A DNA stretch of 26,311 nt, taken from positions 1 to 26,311 of IMG/VR virus record IMGVR_UViG_3300046675_000241. The stretch is one strand, 5' to 3'. Made by a program: the position numbers and the translations under genes. Position 1 is the first letter of the stretch, and the number at the start of each line of letters is the position of its first letter. The notes beneath the pieces are model-generated. The model was not told the DNA's origin and did not search any database. It worked only from the letters and a program-made list of their open reading frames with translations. This DNA comes from a virus. This document shows, piece after piece, positions 7,135 to 18,514 of the stretch.

Positions 7135-7223
7135 GGAACGAATACCCCAGCTTTGCCACATTTCGGGCAATGGGGCGGGAAGGCAAACATTATCTGACAA
7201 TTAGTGCAATACCAAACGCTCAT
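7131..7223 (-). CDS. 30-residue zinc-ribbon microprotein
   Basis: The complete reading is MSVWYCTNCQIMFAF then PPHCPKCGKAGVFVP. It has two CxxC knuckles (YCTNC and HCPKC), a classic zinc ribbon. The ATG overlaps the stop of the methyltransferase gene by one base (TAATG), and the TGA overlaps the portal start by four (ATGA). The gene is therefore locked into a translationally coupled chain on both sides, which makes chance occurrence unlikely. The function is unknown; a small adaptor or assembly factor is possible. Confidence 0.7.
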   Translation of the reverse strand: MSVWYCTNCQIMFAFPPHCPKCGKAGVFVP

Positions 7224-7810
7224 TAGCGTTTCACCACATAATAGCGTTGGGCACAAGTCTTTAGTTCATCAATAGAGAAATTCTCCTCTACCGCCTTCTT
7301 CGCACCAGCGAGATAAGGGTAATCATCGAACAAAAGAATACCTCCGCTGACAACAAGTGGCCACATACGGTGAATAACACTGCTGTAGCTTTCGTATTGA
7401 TCGCAATCACAATGTATAAAGGCAATGCTTCGCATCTCCGCAGGATGGGTATCAGGGTAAATACCGATGTGAAGATGTGCTAGGGGCATCAAGTCTGCGA
7501 TACGTTTTGGGGCATGTTTATCCGCGAATTCATCATCTATCCGGTGCTTATCAAGGCCTTCGGTAAAGACCGGGGTGCCACTAAAGGTATCAAATAAGTG
7601 TAGCTCTCGGTCTTGCTTTATGGCAACCTCGTAGAGATAATAGGCACTGCCGCCATGATAGACGCCGATCTCGCAGAACGCACCATCCGGTGTCAGTGAC
7701 GCTAAGTCTGCCATTGCTTTCAGTTGGTGCGAATTGACAATACTTGGCAGCATGTTATTAAGAAGCCAATTTCGCTCTGAGAGATACGGGCTTGGCTGAC
7801 GGCGAAGCAT
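7223..7810 (-). CDS. TylF/MycF-type class I SAM methyltransferase (195 aa)
   Basis: The SAM-binding motif is FCEIGVYHGGSAYYL (about residues 44-58). It is followed by LHLFDTFSGTP, the metal/substrate region FIHCDCDQYESY, and GGILLFDDYPYLAGAKKAVEE, which is the arrangement of the TylF/macrocin O-methyltransferase group acting on sugar hydroxyls. AGGGG lies 7 nt before the ATG at 7808-7810. The start lies 53 bp inside the upstream gene and the stop is coupled (TAATG) to the zinc ribbon. With the TPR glycosyltransferase nearby, it may methylate a sugar on virion or host glycan; that link is inference. Confidence 0.78.
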   Translation of the reverse strand: MLRRQPSPYLSERNWLLNNMLPSIVNSHQLKAMADLASLTPDGAFCEIGVYHGGSAYYLYEVAIKQDRELHLFDTFSGTPVFTEGLDKHRIDDEFADKHAPKRIADLMPLAHLHIGIYPDTHPAEMRSIAFIHCDCDQYESYSSVIHRMWPLVVSGGILLFDDYPYLAGAKKAVEENFSIDELKTCAQRYYVVKR

Positions 7811-7967
7811 CTAGTTCCCCTGGAAGTTCATTTAGTTCGATGTCTTTTAGGCCAACGGATTTCAATTGCCCATCGGTTATCACAATTGCCTGAACTTTGC
7901 TTTTGTGCCCTTGGCAATAACCTACGATTAGCGCCGGCTTCTTATTCACTTTACATAGTATCTTCAT
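7758..7967 (-). CDS. Small hypothetical protein (69 aa)
   Basis: The product begins MKILCKVNKKPALIVGYCQG and is mostly beta-type, with a Ser/Pro/Ala tail that overlaps the methyltransferase gene in another frame. The ATG at 7965-7967 has a GGAG 10 nt upstream, inside a short hairpin (GCGGAG / CTTCGCCGC) that could hide it. It is the first gene after palindrome copy 2 and probably heads the transcript leading to the portal. No family recognised. Confidence 0.55.
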   Translation of the reverse strand: MKILCKVNKKPALIVGYCQGHKSKVQAIVITDGQLKSVGLKDIELNELPGELDASPSAKPVSLRAKLAS

Positions 7968-7994
7968 TGCGGCGAAGCTCCGCGAGTATGATAG

Positions 7995-8019
7995 ATGGGG
8001 TAGGGAAAATCTACCGCAT
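7995..8019. repeat. Dispersed palindrome, copy 2
   Basis: The core is ATGGGGTAG, spacer GGAAAAT (7 nt), CTACCGCAT, with flanking ATA continuing the right arm. Read on the minus strand it is ATGCGGTAG-ATTTTCC-CTACCCCAT. It lies 10 bp beyond the stop of the holin-like gene and 28 nt before the start at 7967. Confidence 0.85.
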
Positions 8020-8028
8020 ATACCATAT

Positions 8029-8232
8029 TCACTGTTTCTTCTCCAAACAAGAGGTGATAATTCTCTGTATCATCTCGTTCCGGGCCGCAGTATTGTGCTG
8101 AAAGACATAACTTGCCACGCCGAGAAAGACAATATTGAGCAAAACAAGTAAGAGGAATGCAGGCGGCAATGCCCGAATAAGTTTCTCACTAACGCCAGCA
8201 AGGAGACCTCCGGTATCATTAGACTCCGACAT
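8029..8232 (-). CDS. Single-TM holin-like membrane protein (67 aa)
   Basis: The product starts MSESNDTGGLLAGVSEKLIR, has one strong hydrophobic helix (LPPAFLLLVLLNIVFLGVASYVF, about residues 22-44), and ends in a charged tail (RNEMIQRIITSCLEKKQ). Its size, the single helix and its place directly after an amidase-like gene fit a holin or spanin-type lysis partner; sequence alone does not prove this. The ATG at 8230-8232 overlaps the end of the amidase gene by 14 bp; a GTG one codon earlier is possible. It ends just before palindrome copy 2. Confidence 0.6.
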   Translation of the reverse strand: MSESNDTGGLLAGVSEKLIRALPPAFLLLVLLNIVFLGVASYVFQHNTAARNEMIQRIITSCLEKKQ

Positions 8233-8602
8233 CACTAACTAGCTCAATAGCGTAGAACTTATTACCGTCATTGACGGCATCACCAGTTCCGTTACGAAAG
8301 GAAATAAGCCTCTTATGGCAAACCTGGCCCTTCCATTGGTCACAAACTAAGAGGCCATCAGTATTTTCCGAAAGCAATATTGCCGCATGGCTGCGGCCAT
8401 CGGTATGATTGCCATATAATCCATTTGGATCGAAGGTAGCGATGCATGTGCCCGAAGCAAGGTATGAGCCTTTTACTAATTCGCCACACCTCCATTCGCT
8501 CGTATGCGGCAACCCACCGCATTCTCGCACAAGGGCTACGCAATGACCATCAGGAACCACTGTTCCCATATGACGCTCGTAACCCTTGGCGAGATGCGGC
8601 AA
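8219..8602 (-). CDS. BPSL0067-like papain-fold amidase, possible endolysin (127 aa)
   Basis: Motifs match the BPSL0067 family: PDGHCVALVREC (candidate catalytic Cys, near residue 20), HTSEWRCGELVKG, GTCIATFDPNGLYGNHTDGR then SHAAILL (candidate His), then GLLVCDQWKGQVCH. These are NlpC/CHAP-like cysteine peptidases or amidases that cut peptidoglycan cross-links. The start is set at a TTG at 8600-8602, 8 nt after AAGGA and just past the stop of the upstream gene (8614). A longer frame to 8686 would overlap that gene by 73 bp, and an ATG at 8567-8569 is also possible. The adjacent membrane protein suggests a lysis pair. Confidence 0.65.
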   Translation of the reverse strand: MPHLAKGYERHMGTVVPDGHCVALVRECGGLPHTSEWRCGELVKGSYLASGTCIATFDPNGLYGNHTDGRSHAAILLSENTDGLLVCDQWKGQVCHKRLISFRNGTGDAVNDGNKFYAIELVSDVGV

Positions 8603-8613
8603 AATAAGTTTCC

Positions 8614-9132
8614 TTATTTCGGCGCCGGTGCAGGTGGGAGGGGCATTCCCACTTCCAGCGATGGATCGACACAAACGTAGCGCCAACCAATACCAGGAAT
8701 ACCTGCTACGACCCAGAACTTGACGGACGGTAGAGTATTATCGGGCATTCCGCCAGAGCCGCCCGGAAGAGTATTGTCTGGCCCTTCGCCACCAGGCATA
8801 GGTCCACCACCAGGATGTCCCGTGGACGGCAGATCATGTCCTGGACGAGCTGGGCGGCCGGGAGACGGCCAAATAGTTCCCGGTTGCACGGGCAGTGTAT
8901 TATCTGGCCCGATCGGGACAATTGGCCGACCGAAACTGGGTGGTGGCCAAATACCCGGAGGGGGTGCGGGCAAATTCACACCGATAGGCGGCGTTCCCGG
9001 GGGAAGCGAGTTGTCGATACTCCCACCCATATCATGCCCATAACCTGGATCAACCGGCCCTTCCATGCCAGGAAGTTCATTATCCGGATGACCCCGTTCA
9101 CGAACCCGAAGGAAACCACTAACAAATGGCAT
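8614..9132 (-). CDS. Pro/Gly-rich repeat protein with PDN(T/S/E)LP motifs (172 aa)
   Basis: Residues about 15-135 are low-complexity Pro/Gly with the recurring short motif DNELP, DNSLP, DNTLP (at least five copies, several as GPDNTLP or MPDNTLP), spaced by glycine/proline runs. The final 35 residues are different (KFWVVAGIPGIGWRYVCVDP) and look folded. AGGAGAG lies 7 nt upstream of the ATG. It may be an extended structural or adhesion linker on the virion. The repeats are direct observation, the role a guess. Confidence 0.65.
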   Translation of the reverse strand: MPFVSGFLRVRERGHPDNELPGMEGPVDPGYGHDMGGSIDNSLPPGTPPIGVNLPAPPPGIWPPPSFGRPIVPIGPDNTLPVQPGTIWPSPGRPARPGHDLPSTGHPGGGPMPGGEGPDNTLPGGSGGMPDNTLPSVKFWVVAGIPGIGWRYVCVDPSLEVGMPLPPAPAPK

Positions 9133-9167
9133 AAGGCACTCTCCTATAGTTGTTAAGAACGGTTCTA

Positions 9168-9353
9168 CTAATCGGGCAAGTTCTGGGCTTTCAGCAGTTC
9201 TGCCGATGCCACCGCTTGCTGCTCAGGCGTTCCTTTCTTCGCCTCTTCTACGGCCCTATGGGCCTTATTTAGCGCATCACGTTTCTTCTGCGCGTTTGTT
9301 GCCGCCTCTTCCTTGGGCTTCTGCTCTTCCTCAGCCTTTGGGTCTTCAGCCAT
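9168..9353 (-). CDS. Small charged helical protein (61 aa)
   Basis: The product (MAEDPKAEEEQKPKEEAATN..., then KKRDALNKAHRAVEEAKKGT) is almost entirely Ala/Glu/Lys and predicted helical or coiled coil. GGAGA lies about 7 nt before the ATG at 9351-9353, so the upstream ATG at 9383 is rejected. It lies between the beta-helix protein and the Pro/Gly repeat protein. Function unknown. Confidence 0.6.
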   Translation of the reverse strand: MAEDPKAEEEQKPKEEAATNAQKKRDALNKAHRAVEEAKKGTPEQQAVASAELLKAQNLPD

Positions 9354-9364
9354 TACAGTTCTCC

Positions 9365-10360
9365 TTACTGGTGATCGGACCATAGAGTTGCGCTCACTAC
9401 ATTAACATGATGGCCATGTCCATGTCCGTGGCCATGCACGGGCGGAGGTGGGGGCAGAGGTGGAACCGTAGTGCCAAACGTCAACGAAGATGTATCTAAC
9501 GTTGGGCGAGTTGCAAGGTCAGTATTGCCAGAAGCAATTACGTTGCCGAGATTAGAGAGGTTCCAATCTGAGTTATTGGTAAATGATGCCGGCCCTCCCA
9601 ATACGCCATAACCACTAGGATCGTCATTAACGATCGTATTGCCCGTGATGAACATCATCCCGCCGTTGGTATTGCCCTCTTCGCCCCAAGCGAATATCGC
9701 GGGGTTCTGTGTAAACGCACCTTGCTCTATGGTGTTCCCCGTAATGCTAGCATTGCCACCGTTAGGAAGGTCAATACTGTAGCTAGCACTAGCATTGTTA
9801 TCGAATATGCGATTATTCGTGATAGTGTTATCCTGTGCGCGGCTCTTGATTTCATGACCGACCACAGCCTCGTGAACATAACTGTTGCTTATCGAAAACG
9901 ACTTAATGGCGCCAACATAGATGTTATGCGTTGATCCACTGCCATCCCCGTTGAAGGCAAATTCACTATGGTTGATGGTAATGCTACCGTTTGGATCGGC
10001 TGCACCAAGGAGTCCTTCTTGGTTGTTGTGGAAGTAATCGTCGGAGAGCGAAAGCGCACCTCCCTCATAGCGGATCGCAGCGCCATTTCGATCCGATACA
10101 GAAACCCCGCTAATCTCAAACCCATTGATTGCCACATTTAGGCCACTTGCTCCCTCCGTTATCATCGCCTTACCGTTGGTTGGTGAAGTATCTTCGGTCA
10201 TAACCACTTGGCCGCCAATGGCCTGAAGGGTCAGGGACTTCCCGATGGTTAGGAACTGGTCATTATAAGTACCAGCAGCAACGTCAATAGTATCACCACT
10301 GTTAGCCGCATTTATTGCCTGCTGGATGCTCTGACCGACGGCAACATTGATAACTGCCAT
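9365..10360 (-). CDS. Right-handed beta-helix surface protein with His/Gly tail (331 aa)
   Basis: The N-terminus SIQQAINAANSGDTIDVAAG then TYNDQFLTIGKSLTLQAIGG is the usual entry to a parallel beta-helix. It is followed by many Asn-rich turns (ITGNTIEQGAF, MMFITGNTIVND, DNTITNNRIFDNNAS). Such folds occur in phage tailspikes, depolymerases and pectate-lyase-like enzymes; no active-site motif can be assigned. After a polyproline stretch (PPLPPPPPVHG) the C-terminus has alternating His-Gly (HGHGHGHGHH), a possible metal-binding tail. An AAAGG ribosome binding site precedes the ATG. It comes straight after a terminator and may need read-through or its own promoter. Confidence 0.72.
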   Translation of the reverse strand: MAVINVAVGQSIQQAINAANSGDTIDVAAGTYNDQFLTIGKSLTLQAIGGQVVMTEDTSPTNGKAMITEGASGLNVAINGFEISGVSVSDRNGAAIRYEGGALSLSDDYFHNNQEGLLGAADPNGSITINHSEFAFNGDGSGSTHNIYVGAIKSFSISNSYVHEAVVGHEIKSRAQDNTITNNRIFDNNASASYSIDLPNGGNASITGNTIEQGAFTQNPAIFAWGEEGNTNGGMMFITGNTIVNDDPSGYGVLGGPASFTNNSDWNLSNLGNVIASGNTDLATRPTLDTSSLTFGTTVPPLPPPPPVHGHGHGHGHHVNVVSATLWSDHQ

Positions 10361-10372
10361 CTCAGGCCTTTC

Positions 10373-10399
10373 TCAAAAGAAAAGGCCCCGAAGGGCCTT
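10373..10399 (-). terminator. Rho-independent terminator after the PEP-CTERM genes
   Basis: In minus-strand RNA this is AAGGCCC-UUCG-GGGCCUU followed by a U-rich tract (TTTTCTTTT): a 7-bp stem closed by a UUCG tetraloop. It lies 30 bp beyond the stop of the second PEP-CTERM gene and about 12 bp before the start of the beta-helix gene. Confidence 0.82.
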
Positions 10400-10429
10400 A
10401 AGTTTCACTCCCAAACGAGAAGAAAGAGA

Positions 10430-11173
10430 CTAGCTAGTCTTGCGTCTCCCGAACGCAACTGTTCCAAGCAAACCGAGGCCTAAGAGGGCAATTGACATCG
10501 GCTCTGGTGTCGCTACGATCACCGGATTTATCACACAATCCGGACACGATGTGTTAATCGGAATATCTTCCGACACGAGACTGTAGTTTTGCTGAGTACC
10601 GACCCAGTTGATCTTCAGGGCGGTGCTATAGTTTGCCCAAGAGTCACCCGGCAACAGCGTTGCTTCGAATCCAATCACGATCGGCGTAGTGCCGAGTAGC
10701 GCCGTAGGAATAATCTGGGGATTGGAGTTCTGGTCAATCGCTGTATTGTCGAAGCAGAAGAAATTCCCGGTGCTATTGCAGCCGGTTGAGTTCAATCCGC
10801 CGTTCTTGAACACCCAATTACTCGGATTATTCACCAACGTACCGTCGAAGATAGTCCCGACCACAACACCCGTTGCGGGCGAGTTAGTCTTATTGTTCAC
10901 GAGATTAAACGCAAAGGCATCAATGCCAGTGCGGCCACCACGTGTGTCGGTGCCTGAGTTCTGGCCCGTGATAAGTAAGGCGAATTGCTCCGTCAGCGGA
11001 TCGGCTGTTGCTTGCGCTTCAAGAGTATAGGTAAGGCCTTCGCAAGCCCCGTTTGGCGCCGGTGCACCGCAAGTCCCAGCAGCATTAGAGATCGAGATTA
11101 GCGCAGCATATGCTGGGACGGTGAAGTACATGGCACCAGCAACAACCGCCGTAGTCATTAGTAACTTTTTCAT
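10430..11173 (-). CDS. PEP-CTERM sorting-domain protein (247 aa)
   Basis: It has a signal peptide MKKLLMTTAVVAGAMYFTVP ending AYA, a beta-rich secreted body with several Cys (TCGAPAPNGAC, STGCNSTGNFFC, TSCPDC), and a C-terminal TPEPMSIALLGLGLLG helix followed by FGRRKTS. That is the complete PEP-CTERM tripartite signal (PEP, TM helix, basic end) recognised by exosortase in Gram-negative bacteria. The protein would be exported and processed by the host envelope machinery. AAGGA lies 10 nt before the ATG. It follows a second such gene with 39 bp between, and a strong terminator follows. The presence of such a protein in a phage structural region is unusual. Confidence 0.85.
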   Translation of the reverse strand: MKKLLMTTAVVAGAMYFTVPAYAALISISNAAGTCGAPAPNGACEGLTYTLEAQATADPLTEQFALLITGQNSGTDTRGGRTGIDAFAFNLVNNKTNSPATGVVVGTIFDGTLVNNPSNWVFKNGGLNSTGCNSTGNFFCFDNTAIDQNSNPQIIPTALLGTTPIVIGFEATLLPGDSWANYSTALKINWVGTQQNYSLVSEDIPINTSCPDCVINPVIVATPEPMSIALLGLGLLGTVAFGRRKTS

Positions 11174-11212
11174 TTTGGTGTGTCCTTTGCGTTTCCCAAG
11201 TTTATATTGTTG

Positions 11213-11860
11213 TTAGTAGCTTCTGCGGCGGTGGGCAACCATGCCAATGCCGAGAAGACCCAGGCCAAGAATGCCGAGAGACGCCGGTTCAGACGCTGCA
11301 ACGGCGTTAGACGACACATCGCCAGTAAATGATGCATCGAATGCACCAATGGTCGATCCGTCAATGACTAGTGGTGTCGAGAAATTGACGAACGTCAGGT
11401 TGAACGAGCTCGGCGGTAAGAGTTCACCGGCCGGAATAACATTCGAAGATAACGTAAGGTTTTCTGGCGGGTTACTGACCTGAACGGTCAGGCCGGGGCC
11501 ACCAGCAGCACCGAAGGCGGCATCGGTAAATGTGCCCGAGAGGAAGTTGCCGCCGCAGCCGGCGACGGAACTGACGCAGAAGCTGCCGCTGTAGTGCTGG
11601 ACGATTTCACCGGAGATATTCACGGCGCTGTCGATCGACGTTGCGGAGAGTTCGAACGATGCCCCGGCAACATTGAACAACCCACCACCAAGTGTAACTA
11701 GCGTTCCTGCGGCGACACTGATATTCGTCACCGCGCCGTCGTCAGTTGCCACCACGGTATTATTCAGGCTCTCCTGCGAGAAGCCCGTTAGCAGCGTGGC
11801 ATTCGCGGGCACTGTGGCGAGGGCTAAGAGGCCGGCTGTAGCATAGAGTAGCTTCTTCAT
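11213..11860 (-). CDS. PEP-CTERM-like secreted protein (215 aa)
   Basis: The signal peptide is MKKLLYATAGLLALATVPAN-A, followed by a Ser/Thr/Val-rich beta body with one Cys pair (GSFCVSSVAGCGGNF), then SEPASLGILGLGLLGIGMV and a basic end (AHRRRSY). The PEP box is the SEPAS variant. The signal peptide start and C-terminal anchor resemble the neighbouring PEP-CTERM protein, but the bodies differ, so the two are a tandem set rather than recent copies. AGGGG lies 7 nt before the ATG; the gene begins 10 bp after the TerL stop. Host cell-surface modification or biofilm matrix are possible roles. Confidence 0.82.
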   Translation of the reverse strand: MKKLLYATAGLLALATVPANATLLTGFSQESLNNTVVATDDGAVTNISVAAGTLVTLGGGLFNVAGASFELSATSIDSAVNISGEIVQHYSGSFCVSSVAGCGGNFLSGTFTDAAFGAAGGPGLTVQVSNPPENLTLSSNVIPAGELLPPSSFNLTFVNFSTPLVIDGSTIGAFDASFTGDVSSNAVAASEPASLGILGLGLLGIGMVAHRRRSY

Positions 11861-11869
11861 TTGTTTCCC

Positions 11870-13363
11870 CTATATTAGAGTTGCAACTAAGGCACGATGA
11901 GGAGAATTGCTCCGTCCTGCACATGCGTTGTGCCAGAACAATTCCCCATCCGTTACGCGACTACCGCCGGTAACGGCCTTTCCGCAGGAGACACATACAC
12001 GCCTCATTTGCGGAAGGGTCTGGGCCACGACTTCGTTATAGAGTTCCTCTAACTCATTCGCCGTGATATTATCGACCGCTAGGTCTGGCTCATCTCGCCA
12101 AGGGCGATTGTTAATCAAAGGAAGAGCTGCTTCCTTCTCTCGCAGAGCTGTCGAAACCCCGGCATAGTACTTCATGATATTCTCGCCTGGGGCAACTTCG
12201 GTCCACATCTGCCGAGCAAGGGCCAGCGAACATACACAATCGTCGTTATGCCCCTCTGGCGCACTATACCTAATGCCAGTCCGGGCAACGACATATTCAA
12301 ACATTTCGAGTTCCTGGGCAATCGGACCCTGCGGAAAAGCAATCTCTCTCGACTGGATACTGACGGCAAGACCTTCCATAAGCTTCTGCTTGGATGTCGA
12401 GCTGAAATGGAAACCGATGAAGTTCCCGTGTTCGTGTTGTAGTTCCTCAAGGACCGGATCTCCAACGCCGGTCGAGTCAACCAACGCAGGCGTGTCCTCT
12501 CCGACAATACCCCACACCCGGCGAATGCTCTGACGCCACGGCAAGCCACGCCAGCGGTGAAAGGCAGCCACTTGGCCATGTTCATTCAATCCGACGGTGA
12601 CAAAGAAATCCTGACTCTTCGCCAAATCTATGCCCCAAGCAACAACCGGGCCAGGCCCCAGATCACCAATAGTGCAAGCCCGAATATGATCGAGACCAAA
12701 AGGATTTCCCGTGTCATCCCCTGGTTCGGCATAATAGAGTTCCCTAAAGATATTCTCAGGAAGGTCTCTCTTTGCTTCGTCTATTTCTTCACTATCAAGC
12801 ACCCCGGCACTTACGGCATCATCAGCAGTGATCTTGGCGTAGTGCATCCCTTTGTGTTCGCCACTCTCAGCGCGGCGAGCCAAATTATAGAACCAATTCT
12901 TGCGCCCCTTTACATTGCCGATGATGCGGATAGGGCCTCTGGTTGCAGTCAGTGTCGATCTGACGGCATACCATGCGTCTTCTTTGACACGAGAGGCTTC
13001 GTCAATGATTGCCGCATAGACATCCTCTCCGTAGAGAGAGTCTGCGTTATCGCCCGACTTAAACCATATCCACGTTCCGGCCATCGTATGGATACGCGGA
13101 GTTGGCGTGTCGAAGGCGGTGAAACTTCCGGGTGTTAGCCCCATCTTAATTCGGCGATACGCTATCTCGGCCTGATTATACCCTGGGGCTACCCACCAAT
13201 AGTTATGGCCCGTGCTGCCACCTAGGGCCTGTTCGACGATCCAAGCGATACTTCCGACGGTTTTGCCCGATTTGGTCGAGGCTTCGATGAGCGCAAGTCT
13301 CTCTGGGCAGAATATTGCCTCAAGCTGCTTAGGATATAAGTAGGGTCTTGTAAACTCGGCCAG
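11870..13363 (-). CDS. terL: Terminase large subunit, TerL (497 aa)
   Basis: Walker A is ASTKSGKT (about 28-35) and Walker B IIDEAS (about 119-124). Next come the RATR-like/motor segment STLTATRGPIRIIGNVKGRK and a nuclease domain with DLAKSQD, LVDSTGVGDPV and HNDDCVCSLALARQ as the three acidic sites. It cuts and pumps DNA into the prohead. The frame continues upstream of the ATG at 13144 through Walker A to a stop at 13379-13381, with no ATG, GTG or TTG. The best start is CTG at 13361-13363, 8 nt after AAGGA, giving an N-terminus (AEFTRPYLYPKQ) of normal family length. The C-terminus carries an extra zinc motif, C-x2-C-x17-H-x2-C. Confidence 0.88.
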   Translation of the reverse strand: MAEFTRPYLYPKQLEAIFCPERLALIEASTKSGKTVGSIAWIVEQALGGSTGHNYWWVAPGYNQAEIAYRRIKMGLTPGSFTAFDTPTPRIHTMAGTWIWFKSGDNADSLYGEDVYAAIIDEASRVKEDAWYAVRSTLTATRGPIRIIGNVKGRKNWFYNLARRAESGEHKGMHYAKITADDAVSAGVLDSEEIDEAKRDLPENIFRELYYAEPGDDTGNPFGLDHIRACTIGDLGPGPVVAWGIDLAKSQDFFVTVGLNEHGQVAAFHRWRGLPWRQSIRRVWGIVGEDTPALVDSTGVGDPVLEELQHEHGNFIGFHFSSTSKQKLMEGLAVSIQSREIAFPQGPIAQELEMFEYVVARTGIRYSAPEGHNDDCVCSLALARQMWTEVAPGENIMKYYAGVSTALREKEAALPLINNRPWRDEPDLAVDNITANELEELYNEVVAQTLPQMRRVCVSCGKAVTGGSRVTDGELFWHNACAGRSNSPHRALVATLI

Positions 13364-13396
13364 TTGTTTGTTCCTTACCTAGCACCGGGAAAAATA

Positions 13397-13571
13397 GAGC
13401 CGTGACCAGTGCCGTTCCTGTGGGAGAAATACCTGGCCACGACTCTAAGGAGAGGAAACAAAGTAAACACCGAAACCCCCGACCCGGCATAACCGGGCGA
13501 ACCATAGGGCACGAGCACGGAAGGAACCGAAAGCTGAATGCCCTATGATGAGGCAGAGGGTGAAGGCTTTC
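13397..13571 (-). ncRNA. Structured RNA segment between DUF6362 and TerL
   Basis: There is no credible coding in this ~200-nt gap. On the minus strand it can fold into a 13-bp stem (13433-13445 with 13397-13409; both arm differences are G-U pairs in minus RNA but C-A mismatches in plus RNA), a CCCGG-TTATG-CCGGG hairpin (13483-13497), and a 9-bp stem CATAGGGCA / TGCCCTATG (13503-13511 with 13539-13547). A 6-bp pairing GAAAGC / GCTTTC (13566-13571 with 13529-13534) crosses the last stem as a pseudoknot. It could be a leader controlling TerL, a processed RNA, or packaging-related. No known RNA family recognised. Confidence 0.5.
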
Positions 13572-13581
13572 TGAGGCAAGG

Positions 13582-14049
13582 TCAAGGGTTTGATCCCAGG
13601 TTTGTGAAGGATTGGATAAACGCATCTACCTTATCTTGCGAAACGTTTCGCTGAATATCCTTCAGGCCAAGGACATGGTGACGGACGACTTGGTACTTCG
13701 ACGTGTGGAGCATGAAGGCAAGTTTGGTCCAAGAATATAAGTAACGATTCGATATGGGTGTTACCAAGGCTCTAGCATTCACTATCCGACGGCGAGTAAT
13801 GTCCTGTATTAAACCTGGGAGAAGTAGTATTTCGTCCATTAGTTCTATTTCAAACCGATTGGGTATTGCCGCCCGGAGTCGTTCACCAGTATATCCATAT
13901 GCCTCTCTATGGTCCTGGGCAAACTCGGGCCAAGAGACATGAGGCTCTTTGGGAAGTGGCGAAGAGATTTGCAAAGACAGGAGGCGACTGCCTGCCCACT
14001 CGAGCCATTCCTTGATTTCCTCTACGGGGACTATAACACCCTGCCCCAT
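13582..14049 (-). CDS. DUF6362-like protein (155 aa)
   Basis: The core motifs VSWPEFAQDHREAYGYTGER then LRAAIPNRFEIELMDEIL and DITRRRIVNARAL match DUF6362, a phage family usually found beside terminase genes. The last third (SWTKLAFMLHTSKYQVVRHH) looks like a helix-turn-helix, so DNA binding is possible. The ATG at 14047-14049 overlaps the end of the methyltransferase-like gene by 19 bp. The gene is followed by the structured 200-nt gap and TerL. It might serve as a terminase partner or regulator; this is inferred from context. Confidence 0.65.
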   Translation of the reverse strand: MGQGVIVPVEEIKEWLEWAGSRLLSLQISSPLPKEPHVSWPEFAQDHREAYGYTGERLRAAIPNRFEIELMDEILLLPGLIQDITRRRIVNARALVTPISNRYLYSWTKLAFMLHTSKYQVVRHHVLGLKDIQRNVSQDKVDAFIQSFTNLGSNP

Positions 14050-14594
14050 TGTTCGGCCATAGCTTTGGCAACCCCAGGGTATGTCCGACTGCGCTCTTTG
14101 GGCCTATTCCGATGCTGTGACATCTCATATGCCATAGAGCCGAAGGCGATAGTGGGGTTTGTCGGGCGAAGCAGCGGTAGGTTCTTAAGCCAAAGGCAGG
14201 TGCTCTTATTAACATCATGCCCAAACCACCACGGCTGAATGATCTGATTTGGTTTCCGTAGGCGAGTGCTAATGATAGAAACGGGATTCTCTATCGCAAT
14301 ATGCTTTATTGGGGCGTTCATTAGGTCACGAACAAGTTGTAAAGCAAATTCTAGTTTATCCCCTTTCTTCTCAAACAACCAAGCGCCAGAGACTGCTAGA
14401 TCCGTACACGGCGGATGGGCAATTAGTAAGTCCCAATGGCCCCGACAGGCGACATTCAGCACATCGTCTTCTATATGTTGGCCCGCTATTTCACTAGGTT
14501 CATAATCAACGCTCCATGCGTCGAAGCCAAGGCGAGCGAATGCCTCTCTAATGGTGCCACTAAATTCACACCCAATAAGGACTCGCTTTACCAC
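14031..14594 (-). CDS. Phage DNA cytosine-methyltransferase-like protein (187 aa)
   Basis: The start MVKRVLIGCEFSGTIREAFA is a SAM-binding motif I (GCEFSG). It is followed by the acidic loop (WSVDYEPSE) and the catalytic-type motif LLIAHPPCTDLAVSGAW (PPC), then HIAIENPVS (ENP), QPWWFGHDVNKSTCLWLKNL and KERSRTYPGVAKAMAEQWG. This set is typical of short phage DNA methylases related to C5-cytosine enzymes; the protein is shorter than full Dcm-type enzymes. GTG at 14592-14594 is preferred because motif I then starts normally; an upstream GTG at 14616-14618 is possible. It may protect phage DNA from host restriction. Neighbours include a nuclease. Confidence 0.72.
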   Translation of the reverse strand: MVKRVLIGCEFSGTIREAFARLGFDAWSVDYEPSEIAGQHIEDDVLNVACRGHWDLLIAHPPCTDLAVSGAWLFEKKGDKLEFALQLVRDLMNAPIKHIAIENPVSIISTRLRKPNQIIQPWWFGHDVNKSTCLWLKNLPLLRPTNPTIAFGSMAYEMSQHRNRPKERSRTYPGVAKAMAEQWGRVL

Positions 14595-15004
14595 AAGAGA
14601 TGTCCATTGTTTGGCCACTGTAGCAAGTGATAGGGCGAACTAAGGGCGGCACTAACAGTGTGCGAAGCAGGGGGACTCTCGGAAGTAACATTTCGACATA
14701 TGACTAGGGGTGTTGTCATTAGACCGAATGCGGCGGCGACGACGGGGGTATATAACGCATTTAGCTTCTCAACCGCTACTTCGACCCAAGAGAGTTTGAC
14801 CTCTACGATGATAATATAATCGTTGTGCCAGACGAGATAATCCGGACAGCAATTCCCCGGTCCAAACGAGTCCCGATAGGTCAGCCACGGATTATGCTCT
14901 ATCTTAATAAACTTATCCTGCCCTATGTGGCGATGGAGTTCCTTCCCAATTCGCCTCTCGTACCTTAGACCCATCTTTTGGGCCGTGGAGGTTGCTTTTG
15001 GCAA
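14588..15004 (-). CDS. PD-(D/E)XK nuclease-like protein (138 aa)
   Basis: The core GNCCPDYLVWHND then IIIVEVKLSWVEVAVEKLNA carries the PD...ExK active-site signature, preceded by an N-terminal helix (MGLRYERRIGKELHRHI) as in many small phage nucleases. The start is TTG at 15002-15004, with AGG about 8 nt upstream; an internal ATG ten codons later is an alternative. It overlaps the methylase-like gene by 7 bp. Candidate roles are recombination or junction resolution, or nucleolytic host takeover. Confidence 0.65.
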   Translation of the reverse strand: MPKATSTAQKMGLRYERRIGKELHRHIGQDKFIKIEHNPWLTYRDSFGPGNCCPDYLVWHNDYIIIVEVKLSWVEVAVEKLNALYTPVVAAAFGLMTTPLVICRNVTSESPPASHTVSAALSSPYHLLQWPNNGHLLW

Positions 15005-15062
15005 TATTATGCCTGCGCGAGAGCGTTCGGCGCGAATAAGCCCGGCAACTATGCGAAAGTCG

Positions 15063-15254
15063 TTAATTGCTTTCGCCCACTGCTAGCTTTAGGTGCTCTA
15101 AGGCGTCTGCACACAGAACGGCGTATCCGTAGTTCGTCGCCGCCTTGTCACCGGCTCCTTTCGCCTTATGGTGTTCCGCATAACTAGTAAACTGTTTCTC
15201 AGCCCTATCTAAGGCCGACATGGCTTTCTCAATTGCATCGTCCATTAGGGTCAT
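15063..15254 (-). CDS. Small helical phage hypothetical protein (63 aa)
   Basis: The product (MTLMDDAIEKAMSALDRAEK, then FTSYAEHHKAKGAGDKAATN) is a predicted helical hairpin with a YAEHHKAKG segment similar to that in small phage proteins of unknown function. GGAG lies 7 nt before the ATG at 15252-15254. It lies between the nuclease and the zinc-binding gene. No function assigned. Confidence 0.65.
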   Translation of the reverse strand: MTLMDDAIEKAMSALDRAEKQFTSYAEHHKAKGAGDKAATNYGYAVLCADALEHLKLAVGESN

Positions 15255-15263
15255 GACCGTCTC

Positions 15264-15494
15264 CTACGCATCAACCTGCCCTTCACGTTTCTCTACCAGC
15301 CTCTTCGTTTCCGCTTCGTAGATACGCCGGATTTCGGCTTCCGGCAGGCCACCCCACTCACGGAGCTGCTCACACATGAAGCGTAGCTGTGTCTCGGTGA
15401 CTTTCAAAGGCGGCAATGGGCATCCAGGCATAGAGCAATGGTGCGTTCCCTCCGCGCCACATTTTCGGCAAATGGTTGTGGTTTCGTTGTTCAT
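15264..15494 (-). CDS. Small zinc-binding protein (76 aa)
   Basis: The product begins MNNETTTICRKCGAEGTHHC and continues SMPGCPLPP, giving four Cys/His groups (CRKCG, HHC, PGC) that suggest a zinc ribbon. It then has a helical Glu/Arg-rich tail (LRFMCEQLREWGGLPEAEIR). The ATG at 15492-15494 is supported by AAGGAA 7 nt upstream, so the longer reading to 15650 is rejected. The ribosome binding site begins right after the pseudoknot at 15511-15572, so translation could be controlled by it. Confidence 0.62.
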   Translation of the reverse strand: MNNETTTICRKCGAEGTHHCSMPGCPLPPLKVTETQLRFMCEQLREWGGLPEAEIRRIYEAETKRLVEKREGQVDA

Positions 15495-15510
15495 AGTTGT
15501 TTCCTTTAGG

Positions 15511-15572
15511 TGGAAGCTAGGGATGGCTATGCTCTCGCATTTACCTAGCTTCCATCGAGTAGTTGCGAGAGC
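15511..15572 (-). promoter_or_regulatory. H-type RNA pseudoknot just upstream of the 15494 ribosome binding site
   Basis: On the minus strand GCTCTCGCA (15572-15564) pairs perfectly over 9 bp with TGCGAGAGC (15539-15531). TGGAAGCTAGG (15554-15544) pairs over 11 bp with CCTAGCTTCCA (15521-15511). The stems interleave, with connecting loops of 9, 4 and 9 nt, so both can form only as a classic H-type pseudoknot. Its 3' end is directly followed by CCTAAAGGAAACAACT and the ATG. This is the layout of a translation-controlling element or riboswitch. Confidence 0.68.
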
Positions 15573-15941
15573 TACCAAGCCAGCGTTGTTTTTGTTATTC
15601 ATCAGTAAGTAGGTGCGAAGGCAATTGAGGCGGTGGGGAGGTCCTACCATTACGGTGTGAACGGCGATACATCCCAGAAATGTAACGAAGAACTCCTTGT
15701 AAGTAGGACCACCGCTGAATGATTTTTCTGTTGCAGTCTTTTTCTGCTCCCACGGCGGCCCACCTTGGCTAATCTCAGGCCGTTACGACCACCGCAGCGG
15801 TAAGTAGGTAAGTGTGCGTGGTATATTGGGACATGGCTATTGGGGCGAAGCGGTTTGCCACCGAGGCCGACTGGGGCGCCAAGCTGGCATAGCGGGGAGT
15901 ATAACTCCTTGGCGAAGCCTGTCAAGGGAAATCCCAGGTGG
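15573..15941 (-). other. Gene-free structured region
   Basis: I find no convincing gene here; the ORFs lack ribosome binding sites and family resemblance. The segment holds three direct copies of GTAAGTAGG (15605, 15699, 15800), an imperfect long stem (GCGGT plus GGTCCTAC at 15630-15647 with GTAGGACC plus ACCGC at 15703-15715), a small hairpin TACAT / ATGTA inside it, and the palindrome ACCGC-A-GCGGT (15791-15801). Together with the downstream pseudoknot it may be a long structured leader or a small RNA. Confidence 0.45.
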
Positions 15942-15966
15942 ATGGGGTAGAAAGTCACTACCGGAT
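15942..15966. repeat. Dispersed palindrome, copy 3
   Basis: The core is ATGGGGTAG, spacer AAAGTCA (7 nt), CTACCGGAT. The minus reading is ATCCGGTAG-TGACTTT-CTACCCCAT, so the transcription-downstream half is canonical and the other half diverges. It lies 10 bp past the stop of the HAD gene and heads the gap leading to 15494. Confidence 0.75.
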
Positions 15967-15976
15967 ATGCCTTGCA

Positions 15977-16390
15977 CTAGGGCTTCGGGCTATTCCACGG
16001 CCGAAAGGCGAGTATAGCTTCAGGGCGAAGATTGGTAGCATTCCAATCGCCATAGAACTGATAGCACCGATCGTCAATCGTCAACCACGCCGCAGGCTTT
16101 TGGCTGGCGAACTCAATTTCAAGCTCCATGAGCGTTTCGGTGTTTTGCGCGGCGGCCCACTTGTTGCGCTGCTCGTATAGCCATAGGGCCATCAGCTTGA
16201 GTTGGTCCGGGTCCTTGCTGCGCGAGCTATAGATGACGAGTTTGAAATGCATCTGCGCCTCCTCGGCCCACTCGAAGAAACCTTCGGTGATGTCATCGTA
16301 TATTGTTCCATCTTGCCAGCCCTTAGAATAGCGATGGATAACGCCGTCGAAGTCGATACAAAGAGTTGGTTTGAACGTTGTTTCAGACAT
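15977..16390 (-). CDS. HAD-superfamily hydrolase (137 aa)
   Basis: The motif I DFDGVIHRYS (nucleophile Asp near residue 13) is followed by motif II VIYSSRS (about 53-59) and motif IV-like LTIDDRCYQF (about 103-112), with a compact cap region. This resembles small phage HAD phosphatases thought to act on nucleotides or polynucleotide ends. A GGAG lies 11 nt before the ATG. It follows the DUF4338-like gene closely, so both are probably in one transcript with the zinc-knuckle gene. Substrate not deducible. Confidence 0.75.
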   Translation of the reverse strand: MSETTFKPTLCIDFDGVIHRYSKGWQDGTIYDDITEGFFEWAEEAQMHFKLVIYSSRSKDPDQLKLMALWLYEQRNKWAAAQNTETLMELEIEFASQKPAAWLTIDDRCYQFYGDWNATNLRPEAILAFRPWNSPKP

Positions 16391-16406
16391 TTGGCGATGT
16401 CTCCTA

Positions 16407-16961
16407 TTATGCCATTCGGCAGAACACTAACTTGGGCGCAACTTCGGTTGTATTCCACTTCCGGCGGCCGGTCCAATTATCAGATCCCTTTCCGGGAAGA
16501 CGCTTACAGGTATAGCCTTTTGTTTCACCGACGGCGGTCCACTTATCGCGCAAATAACACTCTCCCGTTCGGGGCAACTCGACGAGGGCCTCAAATCCGA
16601 TGACAAAGTTACCATACTTTTCTATCCACCTGCGGGTAATGGCCATTCGCCATGCGGCCAAAACTTTGGGGACGAAGTTATGCGCAGGGTATTTCCCGTC
16701 GATCTTATTGATGTGGAAGAATGTGTTGTTGATGATTTCCTCGAGGGCAAATGACGCTATGCCCCTTCGGAGATAGAAATTTTGGCGGCCTGGGAGGAAT
16801 AGGGTGGCACTGCCACCGACTATCGACCCGTAGCGAACACCGTTGTCGTAGATTAAGTAACAGATATTCCGGCCGACGAATCCATTCGGTTGCGAATAGT
16901 GCTCCCACATATCTGTCCAAAGGAATGTGTTGCTATTTGGGACTTCCTTTAACTGAAGCAT
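16407..16961 (-). CDS. DruA / DUF4338-like (GNAT-related) protein (184 aa)
   Basis: It shows the pattern of DUF4338/DruA-type proteins: HYSQPNGFVGRNICYLIYDN, YGSIVGGSA, LEEIINNTFFHI, AHNFVPKVLAAWRM, then YGNFVIGFEALVELPRTGEC and YLRDKWTAVGETKGY, and a basic C-terminus. Family members include DruA of the Druantia defence system and phage homologues whose activity is unknown, possibly nucleic-acid-modifying acyltransferases. GGAAGG lies 7 nt before the ATG. Its placement near methylase and nuclease genes suggests DNA modification or counter-defence. No other Druantia component is visible here. Confidence 0.55.
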   Translation of the reverse strand: MLQLKEVPNSNTFLWTDMWEHYSQPNGFVGRNICYLIYDNGVRYGSIVGGSATLFLPGRQNFYLRRGIASFALEEIINNTFFHINKIDGKYPAHNFVPKVLAAWRMAITRRWIEKYGNFVIGFEALVELPRTGECYLRDKWTAVGETKGYTCKRLPGKGSDNWTGRRKWNTTEVAPKLVFCRMA

Positions 16962-17042
16962 AGCCTTCCATTCAGACGCTTCATTTCGTTTCGCTCCGCT
17001 GCTCTCCGCTGCACTACGTTCGCTAATACCTGGCCGATATAC

Positions 17043-17237
17043 CTATGGCGCCACAATTGTCTCCGAGGTTCGGCGCCTGGAGCGAAGCGCCCTTTGGCGA
17101 TTGGCATGACATATTAGGCACCGCAGATAGGTCTTTTTGTTCTTCGAATGTCGCATTAACCTTGTGTTTTTGGCATTTAGCCTATGGCCGAAGCGGCACC
17201 ATTGAACGCTTCCTTCGGGAGAGTGATACCGCATCAT
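17043..17237 (-). CDS. Zinc-knuckle protein (64 aa)
   Basis: The product (MMRYHSPEGSVQWCRFGHRL, then RLMRHSKNKKTYLRCLICHA, then NRQRALRSRRRTS) has CRFGH and CLICH knuckles spaced as in small phage HNH-like zinc proteins, with a very basic tail that could bind nucleic acid. No catalytic HNH motif is apparent. No good Shine-Dalgarno precedes either ATG (17237 or 17279); the start at 17237 sits inside a CGCATCATGCG palindrome. It is first after palindrome copy 4. Confidence 0.5.
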   Translation of the reverse strand: MMRYHSPEGSVQWCRFGHRLNAKNTRLMRHSKNKKTYLRCLICHANRQRALRSRRRTSETIVAP

Positions 17238-17291
17238 GCGTAGGGAAAGGGAAGGGGCGAGTGAGAACGGGAACCGCATGATGCGTAGGGA
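17228..17291. repeat. Two copies of a 19-bp motif containing CGCATSATGCG
   Basis: ACCGCATSATGCGTAGGGA occurs at about 17228-17246 and 17273-17291, 45 bp apart and differing only at the palindrome centre (C versus G). Each contains an 11-bp perfect palindrome (CGCAT-C-ATGCG and CGCAT-G-ATGCG). They straddle the possible starts of the zinc-knuckle gene, so they could be operators for it; part of the DNA is also coding if the longer start is used. Confidence 0.6.
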
Positions 17292-17318
17292 CGAATGGAG
17301 AGGGGCACTGGAAGATAG

Positions 17319-17343
17319 ATGGGGTAGAATTTCCCTACCCCAT
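17319..17343. repeat. Dispersed palindrome, copy 4
   Basis: ATGGGGTAG, spacer AATTTCC (7 nt), CTACCCCAT: the only copy with two perfect 9-bp arms of this composition. It ends 5 bp before the TerS-candidate stop codon and lies ahead of the zinc-knuckle, DUF4338 and HAD genes. Confidence 0.87.
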
Positions 17344-17348
17344 ATACC

Positions 17349-17936
17349 TTACTCATCGTCTGCCTTGTGCTCTATTGTCGGCTGAACCTTGTCTACGACA
17401 CGTAGTGGGGTTCCGAAGTTGATGGTTATTGCCGCCGGCGCCGCTTGGGAATTGACGCTTGTCTTCGGAGGCGCTACCGTTCGGTCCATGGCGAATTCTG
17501 CAATCTTTAGGATATTCCCTGTTTGCATTGCCCGGCGTTTGTCATCGTCTTCTAGCCGATCCCTGAGTTCGTCAACTGCCATTTCCCCGACATCGACGAG
17601 TTTGTCGGCAAGCCGGGCCGAATCCTGTATCATGGCCGACATGATTTGGTCTTGGTAGTAGCTGACAAGTTCCGTAAACGTGGGGTCAACTTGCAACTGG
17701 ACGAGCCTTTGCACCGTGCAGCCGACTATGGCGGCGACTTCGGTTGGGGAATGGCCTTTTGCCAATAGCTGTGCTTGTCTGTGGTGTGTCGCTCGGAGCT
17801 TTTGGAGAATGGGGACCGAGACTTTTGGGGCATCTCCTAGGCGCGTTAGATCCTCTCGGGTCAGCTCTCGCTCAACCTCCATTAGAAGTGGCTCTGCTAT
17901 AGCGCCGCGGCTCGGTATGAGATCTGGGCGGGCCAT
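17349..17936 (-). CDS. terS: Terminase small subunit candidate, HTH protein (195 aa)
   Basis: Residues about 52-85 (RQAQLLAKGHSPTEVAAIVG, CTVQRLVQLQVDPTF) form a helix-turn-helix typical of small terminase N-terminal domains. It is followed by a helical middle (QDQIMSAMIQDSARLADKLV, DELRDRLEDDDKRRAM) and a Pro/Ala/Thr-rich end. Small subunits recognise the packaging site and load TerL. The gene is 4 kb from TerL but is the best candidate in the window. GGAG lies 8 nt before the ATG, with a possible promoter just upstream. It could instead be another HTH DNA-binding protein. Confidence 0.6.
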   Translation of the reverse strand: MARPDLIPSRGAIAEPLLMEVERELTREDLTRLGDAPKVSVPILQKLRATHHRQAQLLAKGHSPTEVAAIVGCTVQRLVQLQVDPTFTELVSYYQDQIMSAMIQDSARLADKLVDVGEMAVDELRDRLEDDDKRRAMQTGNILKIAEFAMDRTVAPPKTSVNSQAAPAAITINFGTPLRVVDKVQPTIEHKADDE

Positions 17937-18006: not shown

Positions 18007-18156
18007 GCACTTTCTGTGGATACTTTATAATTGATTGATTGTAGAGGGACAATACCTAGTGATGATAGATATATGCGTAAAAACTGGAATATTTCAGTTC
18101 GTCTCTAGAGCGTCAACCTGCGGTTGTGTGTCCGAAGGGGACCCTACCCGGCACGG

Positions 18157-18514
18157 GGTTGTATACACGGCTGTAGATACACAACCCAGGGTTCATGCCG
18201 AGGGCGAGATGTTATCACACTCGCAACATAGGGGCAGTGTATATACAACACGTATATACACGCCTGGCACGGTGGGCAGACCAGAGGGCATACACCGAAG
18301 GGTTGTGCCATAGCATGGGCCGTGCAACCACTGTGCCCTGTGTATATACAAGCTTGTAGACATGCCAGACCAGGGCGCAGCACGGAAAGTATATACAAAG
18401 TGTCTATACAAATGGGGCGAAATATCACTATTTGCAACGTTCCGACCTGCCCTTTGCGGCGCTTAGGGGGCGTCTACAATGGCACAAGAAAACTCGGGTA
18501 TATAGGTATACCCC
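18157..18514. repeat. Gene-free repeat-rich block (TGTATATACA-type sites)
   Basis: The gap from 17937 to 18653 has no supported gene. It carries at least eight TGTATATACA-like sites: 18159 and 18171 (within GGGTTGT...ACAACCC), GTGTATATAC-AACAC-GTATATACAC (18237-18261, a perfect inverted repeat), 18341, 18354, 18388 and TGTCTATACA at 18401. The palindrome GGGTATATAGGTATACCC is at 18496. A longer unit, CCACYGTGCC...GTGTATATAC, occurs in opposite orientations at 18252-18275 and 18328-18346. It resembles an iteron origin or multi-operator switch. Confidence 0.65.

Follow-up and report, generated by a model that had tools for sequence, protein, structure and literature searches.

What does a perfect RNA pseudoknot do directly in front of a phage ribosome binding site (RBS)? 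Most known examples of leader RNAs controlling phage operons come from a small number of laboratory phages. The window analyzed here, a stretch of 26,311 nt, is a 26.3-kb virus record with a terminase large subunit, which points to a tailed phage. Its minus strand carries an apparent structural operon that reads from the gene of a small C/H-rich protein of 76 aa (15264-15494) towards the terminase. About 480 nt without a credible gene separate this 76-aa gene from a HAD-like gene (15977-16390, a weak Pfam match), and the pseudoknot lies within this gap.

The pseudoknot spans 15572-15511 on the minus strand. In it, a 9-bp and an 11-bp stem, both perfect, interleave and leave loops of 9, 4, and 9 nt; the coordinates reported for this H-type structure in the first-pass annotation were exact. 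Its order from 5' to 3' is GCTCTCGCA (15572-15564), ACTACTCGA, TGGAAGCTAGG (15554-15544), TAAA, TGCGAGAGC (15539-15531), ATAGCCATC, CCTAGCTTCCA (15521-15511), and CCTAAAGGAAACAACTATG. GCTCTCGCA pairs with TGCGAGAGC to form stem S1, and TGGAAGCTAGG pairs with CCTAGCTTCCA to form stem S2, whose 3' arm contains UUCC (15515-15512). All four arms were assigned from sequence and perfect pairing, the S2 3' arm also from pairing probabilities. The expectation that such interleaved stems are unlikely by chance was borne out: none of 200 window shuffles reached the 20 bp of the pseudoknot (longest interleaved total, 17 bp), and each dinucleotide shuffle of the window contained on average 0.23 interleaved stem pairs with 7+7 bp or more and loops of at most 15 nt. 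Outside low complexity, a further 1.03 Mb of fetched DNA yielded only two cases with both stems at least 9 bp and loops at most 20, one intragenic (L053) and one intergenic (L079). Nested-fold z-scores for pieces of the region ranged from -3.0 to -4.8. The pseudoknot is real and rare, far above chance, with no second copy within the window. Covariance models from Rfam 15, riboswitches and small ribozymes included, gave no match above the curated threshold in the whole window; a known riboswitch or ribozyme was rejected on this result, which agrees with the first reading. When E values up to 5 were allowed on 15250-16050, the only match was a chance one to M23 elsewhere (16.3 versus 41.2 bits).

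The pseudoknot adjoins a good RBS on the coding strand, as first described. After the last paired base (15511), 16 nt (CCTAAAGGAAACAACT) lead to the ATG (15494-15492) of the 76-aa gene, the first of the operon. The sequence shows a Shine-Dalgarno motif, AAAGGA (15507-15502), 7 nt upstream of the start codon; it begins 4 nt from the end of the pseudoknot and lies outside it. The frame of the gene is open upstream through the pseudoknot (ORF 15264-15650), and a coding explanation was therefore considered. We dropped this extension and set the start at 15494 because a close relative (L003, below) has an in-frame TAG right before the same ATG and the extension has no relatives. From the ORF, its relatives, and a structure model, the protein combines a C/H-rich N-terminus (CRKCGAEGTHHCSMPGC) with two helices. 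The earlier description of the gene as zinc-binding is a reasonable, predicted reading of CRKCGAEGTHHCSMPGC, but the protein matched no family in Pfam, PHROGs, NCBIfam, or PADLOC, and its AlphaFold2 model has low confidence over this part. L003 is the only relative with the whole gene (95% protein identity); the other four (L004-L007) share the N- or C-terminal half only, and nothing leader-like was found upstream of these half-protein genes. In other phages, the C/H-rich N-terminus and the helical C-terminus turn up apart from each other, with identity reaching 87% (L006:5150-5260, L007:2455-2530, L004:6001-6138, and L005:6001-6135), and the 76-aa protein is, judging by these matches, a shuffled two-module protein.

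The pseudoknot belongs to something larger that the first-pass annotation missed: farther upstream lie a promoter and two helices that covary. A pattern scan placed a sigma-70 type promoter, TTGACA-16-TATACT, at 15925-15898 on the minus strand, and comparison showed that it is kept in L003. It agrees with the consensus at 11 of 12 positions, is the best in the window, and is the only match there of a stricter pattern. With transcription assumed to start about 7 nt past the -10 box, the predicted leader runs for about 398 nt to the ATG, and the pseudoknot forms its 3' end. Helix P1 (15797-15750) joins arms 15797-15787 and 15760-15750, with an inner GGC/GCC pairing and conserved internal bases TCGTAACGGCC and GCCANGGNGGG. 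Helix P3 (15715-15630) joins arms 15715-15703 and 15647-15630, the 3' arm being bulged. Against L003, each helix shows three double-changed pairs and none broken; taken together, with the inner pairing of P1 included, 27 of 27 pairs are kept, with 15 of 54 arm bases substituted and six double changes. The corresponding null probabilities, 5e-5 for pairing and 2e-4 for double changes, are optimistic since the helices were chosen after folding, and the covariation is that of two sequences. Hairpin P2 (15747-15733, GCAG/CTGC) has a counterpart in L003, CAGG/CCTG, shifted by a base; it was counted as covarying at first and then dropped because of this shift in the alignment. The folding energy of the whole leader is ordinary (z 0.22).

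The leader also carries three copies of CCTACTTAC on the minus strand: one before P1 (15808-15800), conserved in L003; one inside the P3 5' arm (15707-15699), absent from L003; and one between P3 and the pseudoknot (15613-15605). The window's Shine-Dalgarno sequence is not complementary to them. These copies, like the CCTACTT repeats of L003, resemble the 16S rRNA 3' tail. Upstream of the promoter, a minus-strand hairpin, AAGGYATAT..GGTAG..CTACC.CAT, occurs at 17318-17350 and at 15941-15973, with 82% identity over 33 nt. It follows two genes, recurs in L003, and is possibly a processing or 3'-end element.

IMG/VR contains one close relative of the window, L003/L088 (10.7 kb). Window positions 5226-15155 are identical to L088 over 9,930 bases (9.9 kb); all 23 mismatches up to 15505 fall within 15156-15486, and farther upstream the identity is about 73%, with gaps. 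This pattern, with its edge directly at the leader, could reflect recent recombination or strain alleles assembled onto a common body. In L003, the promoter is retained together with the upstream portion of the leader, P1 and P3 included. There, P3 is followed by CAAAATAGAGT and then by the common AGGAAACAACTATG, so that the RBS follows P3 directly, and the approximately 115 nt holding the pseudoknot in the window are missing. The L003 leader contains no replacement interleaved stems of at least 6 bp, neither S1 nor S2, and no compensated version of either. It does contain two CCTACTT copies (L003:229-262) able to pair with its own Shine-Dalgarno sequence over 8 and 7 bp; the cover there would be formed by CCTACTTT with AGAGTAGG. 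The first-pass annotation had proposed a translational switch, a regulator-binding site, or an exonuclease-resistant RNA. An above-chance pseudoknot between a promoter and an RBS agrees with this proposal, but conservation speaks against it: in the one relative available, the gene is kept at 95% protein identity while both stems are lost without compensation, the result named at the outset as counting against the proposal. On the evidence of two alleles, the pseudoknot is an allele-specific module; the leader as a whole is conserved better and tells more.

Further copies of either part were sought in larger collections. A pattern scan of IMG/VR for the pseudoknot returned three chance matches, all without the stems, and blastn of phage and plasmid records returned no copy. 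The pseudoknot is without a homologue in the collections searched and hence without covariation support. Pattern scans for P1 in IMG/VR and GTDB genomes gave one real match, L003 itself, the others looking like chance. Model R1 had no matches other than the window and L003 across 0.5 Mb of loci, and none in 397 genomes from the order of an Acetobacter genome, the latter search having no positive control and carrying little weight. Among 80 loci with relatives of the HAD-like gene, no leader-like sequence was seen, and the 25 inspected run straight into another gene.

Folding calculations suggest how such a module could act on the RBS. The best nested fold of the region is an extended S1 hairpin of -29.4 kcal/mol for 96 nt including flanks, in which a competing strand at 15584-15574 lengthens S1 by pairing with the loop that precedes the S2 3' arm and with a portion of this arm. 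This minimum-energy fold releases UUCC (15515-15512), which pairs with the GGAA of the Shine-Dalgarno region (15504-15501) at a probability of 0.75-0.95. This pairing comprises only 4 bp and is impossible once S2 has formed. The stem stacks of the pseudoknot amount to -20.3 and -23.0 kcal/mol. Pseudoknot formation carries a penalty of about 10-12 kcal/mol in parameters of the Dirks-Pierce type; with this penalty, the pseudoknot comes to about -31 kcal/mol and is at least competitive with the nested fold at -29.4. The two potentials to cover a Shine-Dalgarno sequence, that of the window and that of L003, were compared with shuffled leaders and gave P values of 0.115 and 0.08. Neither is under 5%, and Shine-Dalgarno sequestration was rejected as a statistical signal.

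Based on these results, we tentatively favor, at slightly less than even odds, a reading in which a structured 5' leader controls the translation, and probably the mRNA stability, of the phage operon, with the pseudoknot as its last, exchangeable module. The strong predicted promoter, the leader of about 398 nt, the covarying P1 and P3, the above-chance pseudoknot beside the Shine-Dalgarno sequence, and the absence of this pseudoknot in L003 together lead to it. S1 would fold first during transcription, and S2 would then capture the 3' arm CCUAGCUUCCA. With the arm held in S2, UUCC could not reach the GGAA of the Shine-Dalgarno sequence and the RBS would be open; if the extended S1 hairpin claimed the arm, part of the Shine-Dalgarno sequence would be covered. 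The pseudoknot would in this way clamp the open state, presumably the usual state of the leader, and might also serve as a nuclease block or as a landing site for ribosomal protein S1. Because S2 uses up UUCC, initiation would be favored, the mRNA shielded, or both. The structure is supported, and from it we infer the mechanism. No ligand or regulator is evident for the leader. The alternative fold makes a switch possible, and the sequence fits a regulator-binding site or an exonuclease block as well as a switch. A bolder version, which we regard as doubtful, would assign the leader to a new class of cis-regulatory RNAs in phages, with a conserved P1-P3 core behind the promoter and an exchangeable 3' module, in which the pseudoknot would open the Shine-Dalgarno sequence by capturing the anti-Shine-Dalgarno strand under the control of a phage protein or the infection state.

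The exchangeable-module reading has to be weighed against several alternatives. If the pseudoknot were an mRNA stabilizer, it would block nucleases only and leave initiation unaffected. A stable, compact structure adjoining the RBS suits this role, and a riboswitch pseudoknot that blocks RNase E scanning has been described, according to a citation in PMC9373788. However, the best place for a stabilizer is the 5' end, and here about 320 nt of upstream leader would be lost first; the sequence, moreover, does not discriminate a role in stability from one in initiation. We consider this alternative unlikely.

Improbable as well is a protein-binding operator, in which the 76-aa C/H-rich protein or another phage protein would bind the pseudoknot and, in the manner of T4 gp32, repress or activate its own operon at the level of translation. 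The position immediately before the first gene's RBS and the capacity of a small C/H-rich protein to bind nucleic acid would fit, and the T4/RB69 gene 32 operator (PMC535899) is a precedent, being likewise an H-type pseudoknot in a phage mRNA upstream of the RBS of the controlled gene. That operator is divergent and apparently missing in some relatives (RB49) (PMC535899), so divergence or loss among relatives is common to both. The differences are substantial. In gene 32, unstructured RNA rich in UUAAA/UAAA and over 40 nt long separates a pseudoknot of about 28 nt from the start (PMC535899), whereas the pseudoknot of the window has 62 nt, far longer stems, and only the 16 nt of CCTAAAGGAAACAACT before the ATG, a spacer in which no UUAAA/UAAA unstructured repeat tract of the gp32 kind was found. 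The downstream 76-aa protein is no single-strand-binding protein, its RNA binding is putative, and neither family nor structure points to such binding. In addition, L003 has this protein at 95% identity and no pseudoknot.

The interleaved inverted repeats could instead form a protein site on DNA, an operator or a recombination site, with the RNA fold as a by-product. The recombination edge of L003 is nearby (100% identity below 15156, 23 mismatches to 15505, 73% above), as are GTAAGTAGG repeats. The edge, however, is gradual over 350 bp and does not fall at a repeat, and the window holds no second copy of the element. A role in RNA fits better for an element about 330 nt inside the predicted transcribed region and flush with the RBS, and we give a DNA-level site rather little credence. 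Least probable of all is a chance or relic sequence, inserted neutrally and without function: the pseudoknot is missing from the only close relative and has no homologue in the searched collections, but perfect interleaved 9- and 11-bp stems would decay without selection and shuffled sequence gives none as long.

Other known leader pseudoknots resemble the module in part. The tisB standby pseudoknot (PMC7708055) also lies in a long structured leader and, as would be the case here, favors translation; it is located near the 5' end, about 100 nt from a sequestered RBS, whereas the pseudoknot of the window abuts the RBS. SAM-II and other alphaproteobacterial pseudoknot riboswitches (PMC9373788) share an H-type pseudoknot of about 60 nt in a 5' leader. 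In SAM-II, the pseudoknot takes in the Shine-Dalgarno sequence (PMC9373788), while here it ends at 15511 and the Shine-Dalgarno sequence (15507-15502) stays 4 nt outside. This type was rejected on these coordinates, together with the lack of an Rfam match and of a definable conserved ligand pocket. The ToxI type III antitoxin (PMC8860590) is likewise a pseudoknot RNA between a promoter and a gene, but its repeats are arrayed in tandem, with a terminator and then the gene of an endoribonuclease downstream, and the window has a single copy. No tandem pseudoknot array was found in 15200-16100 (only a 7-nt unit elsewhere), no minus-strand site resembling a terminator within 14900-17500, and no ToxN-like endoribonuclease downstream in Pfam, PHROGs, NCBIfam, or PADLOC searches, the 76-aa C/H-rich protein being encoded there instead. 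A type III antitoxin was rejected with array, terminator, and toxin all missing. The put RNA of HK022 (PMC9378689) comprises phage leader stem-loops just past a promoter, and P1-P3 recall it by position only. It has about 70 nt with two stem-loops and binds RNA polymerase (PMC9378689); likeness in sequence was compared via Rfam only, and antitermination by P1-P3 is putative.

Two uncultivated phages, identical over 9.9 kb, share a leader core but differ in its 3' module, which amounts to a natural swap experiment beside an RBS. With leader and gene both present but the pseudoknot missing in the sole close relative, the pseudoknot resembles a replaceable part for tuning more than it does a conserved switch. 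If it does set initiation, it would be a compact part for tuning translation; if it does not, a striking perfect structure need be neither conserved nor regulatory.

Several other features of the minus strand were observed along the way. The terminase ORF (11870-13144) is without an N-terminus, and its frame continues upstream (13145-13360) with a Walker A motif (EASTKSGKT). This upstream frame has no ATG, GTG, or TTG start, and translation probably begins at a CTG that follows AAGGAA. A cluster of TGTATATAC-like repeats lies at 18150-18420, in a stretch of about 600 nt without clear genes. At 10430-11860, inside the phage structural operon, two adjacent genes encode proteins with signal peptides and PEP-CTERM-like C-termini (EPxSxxxLGLGLLG...RRR).
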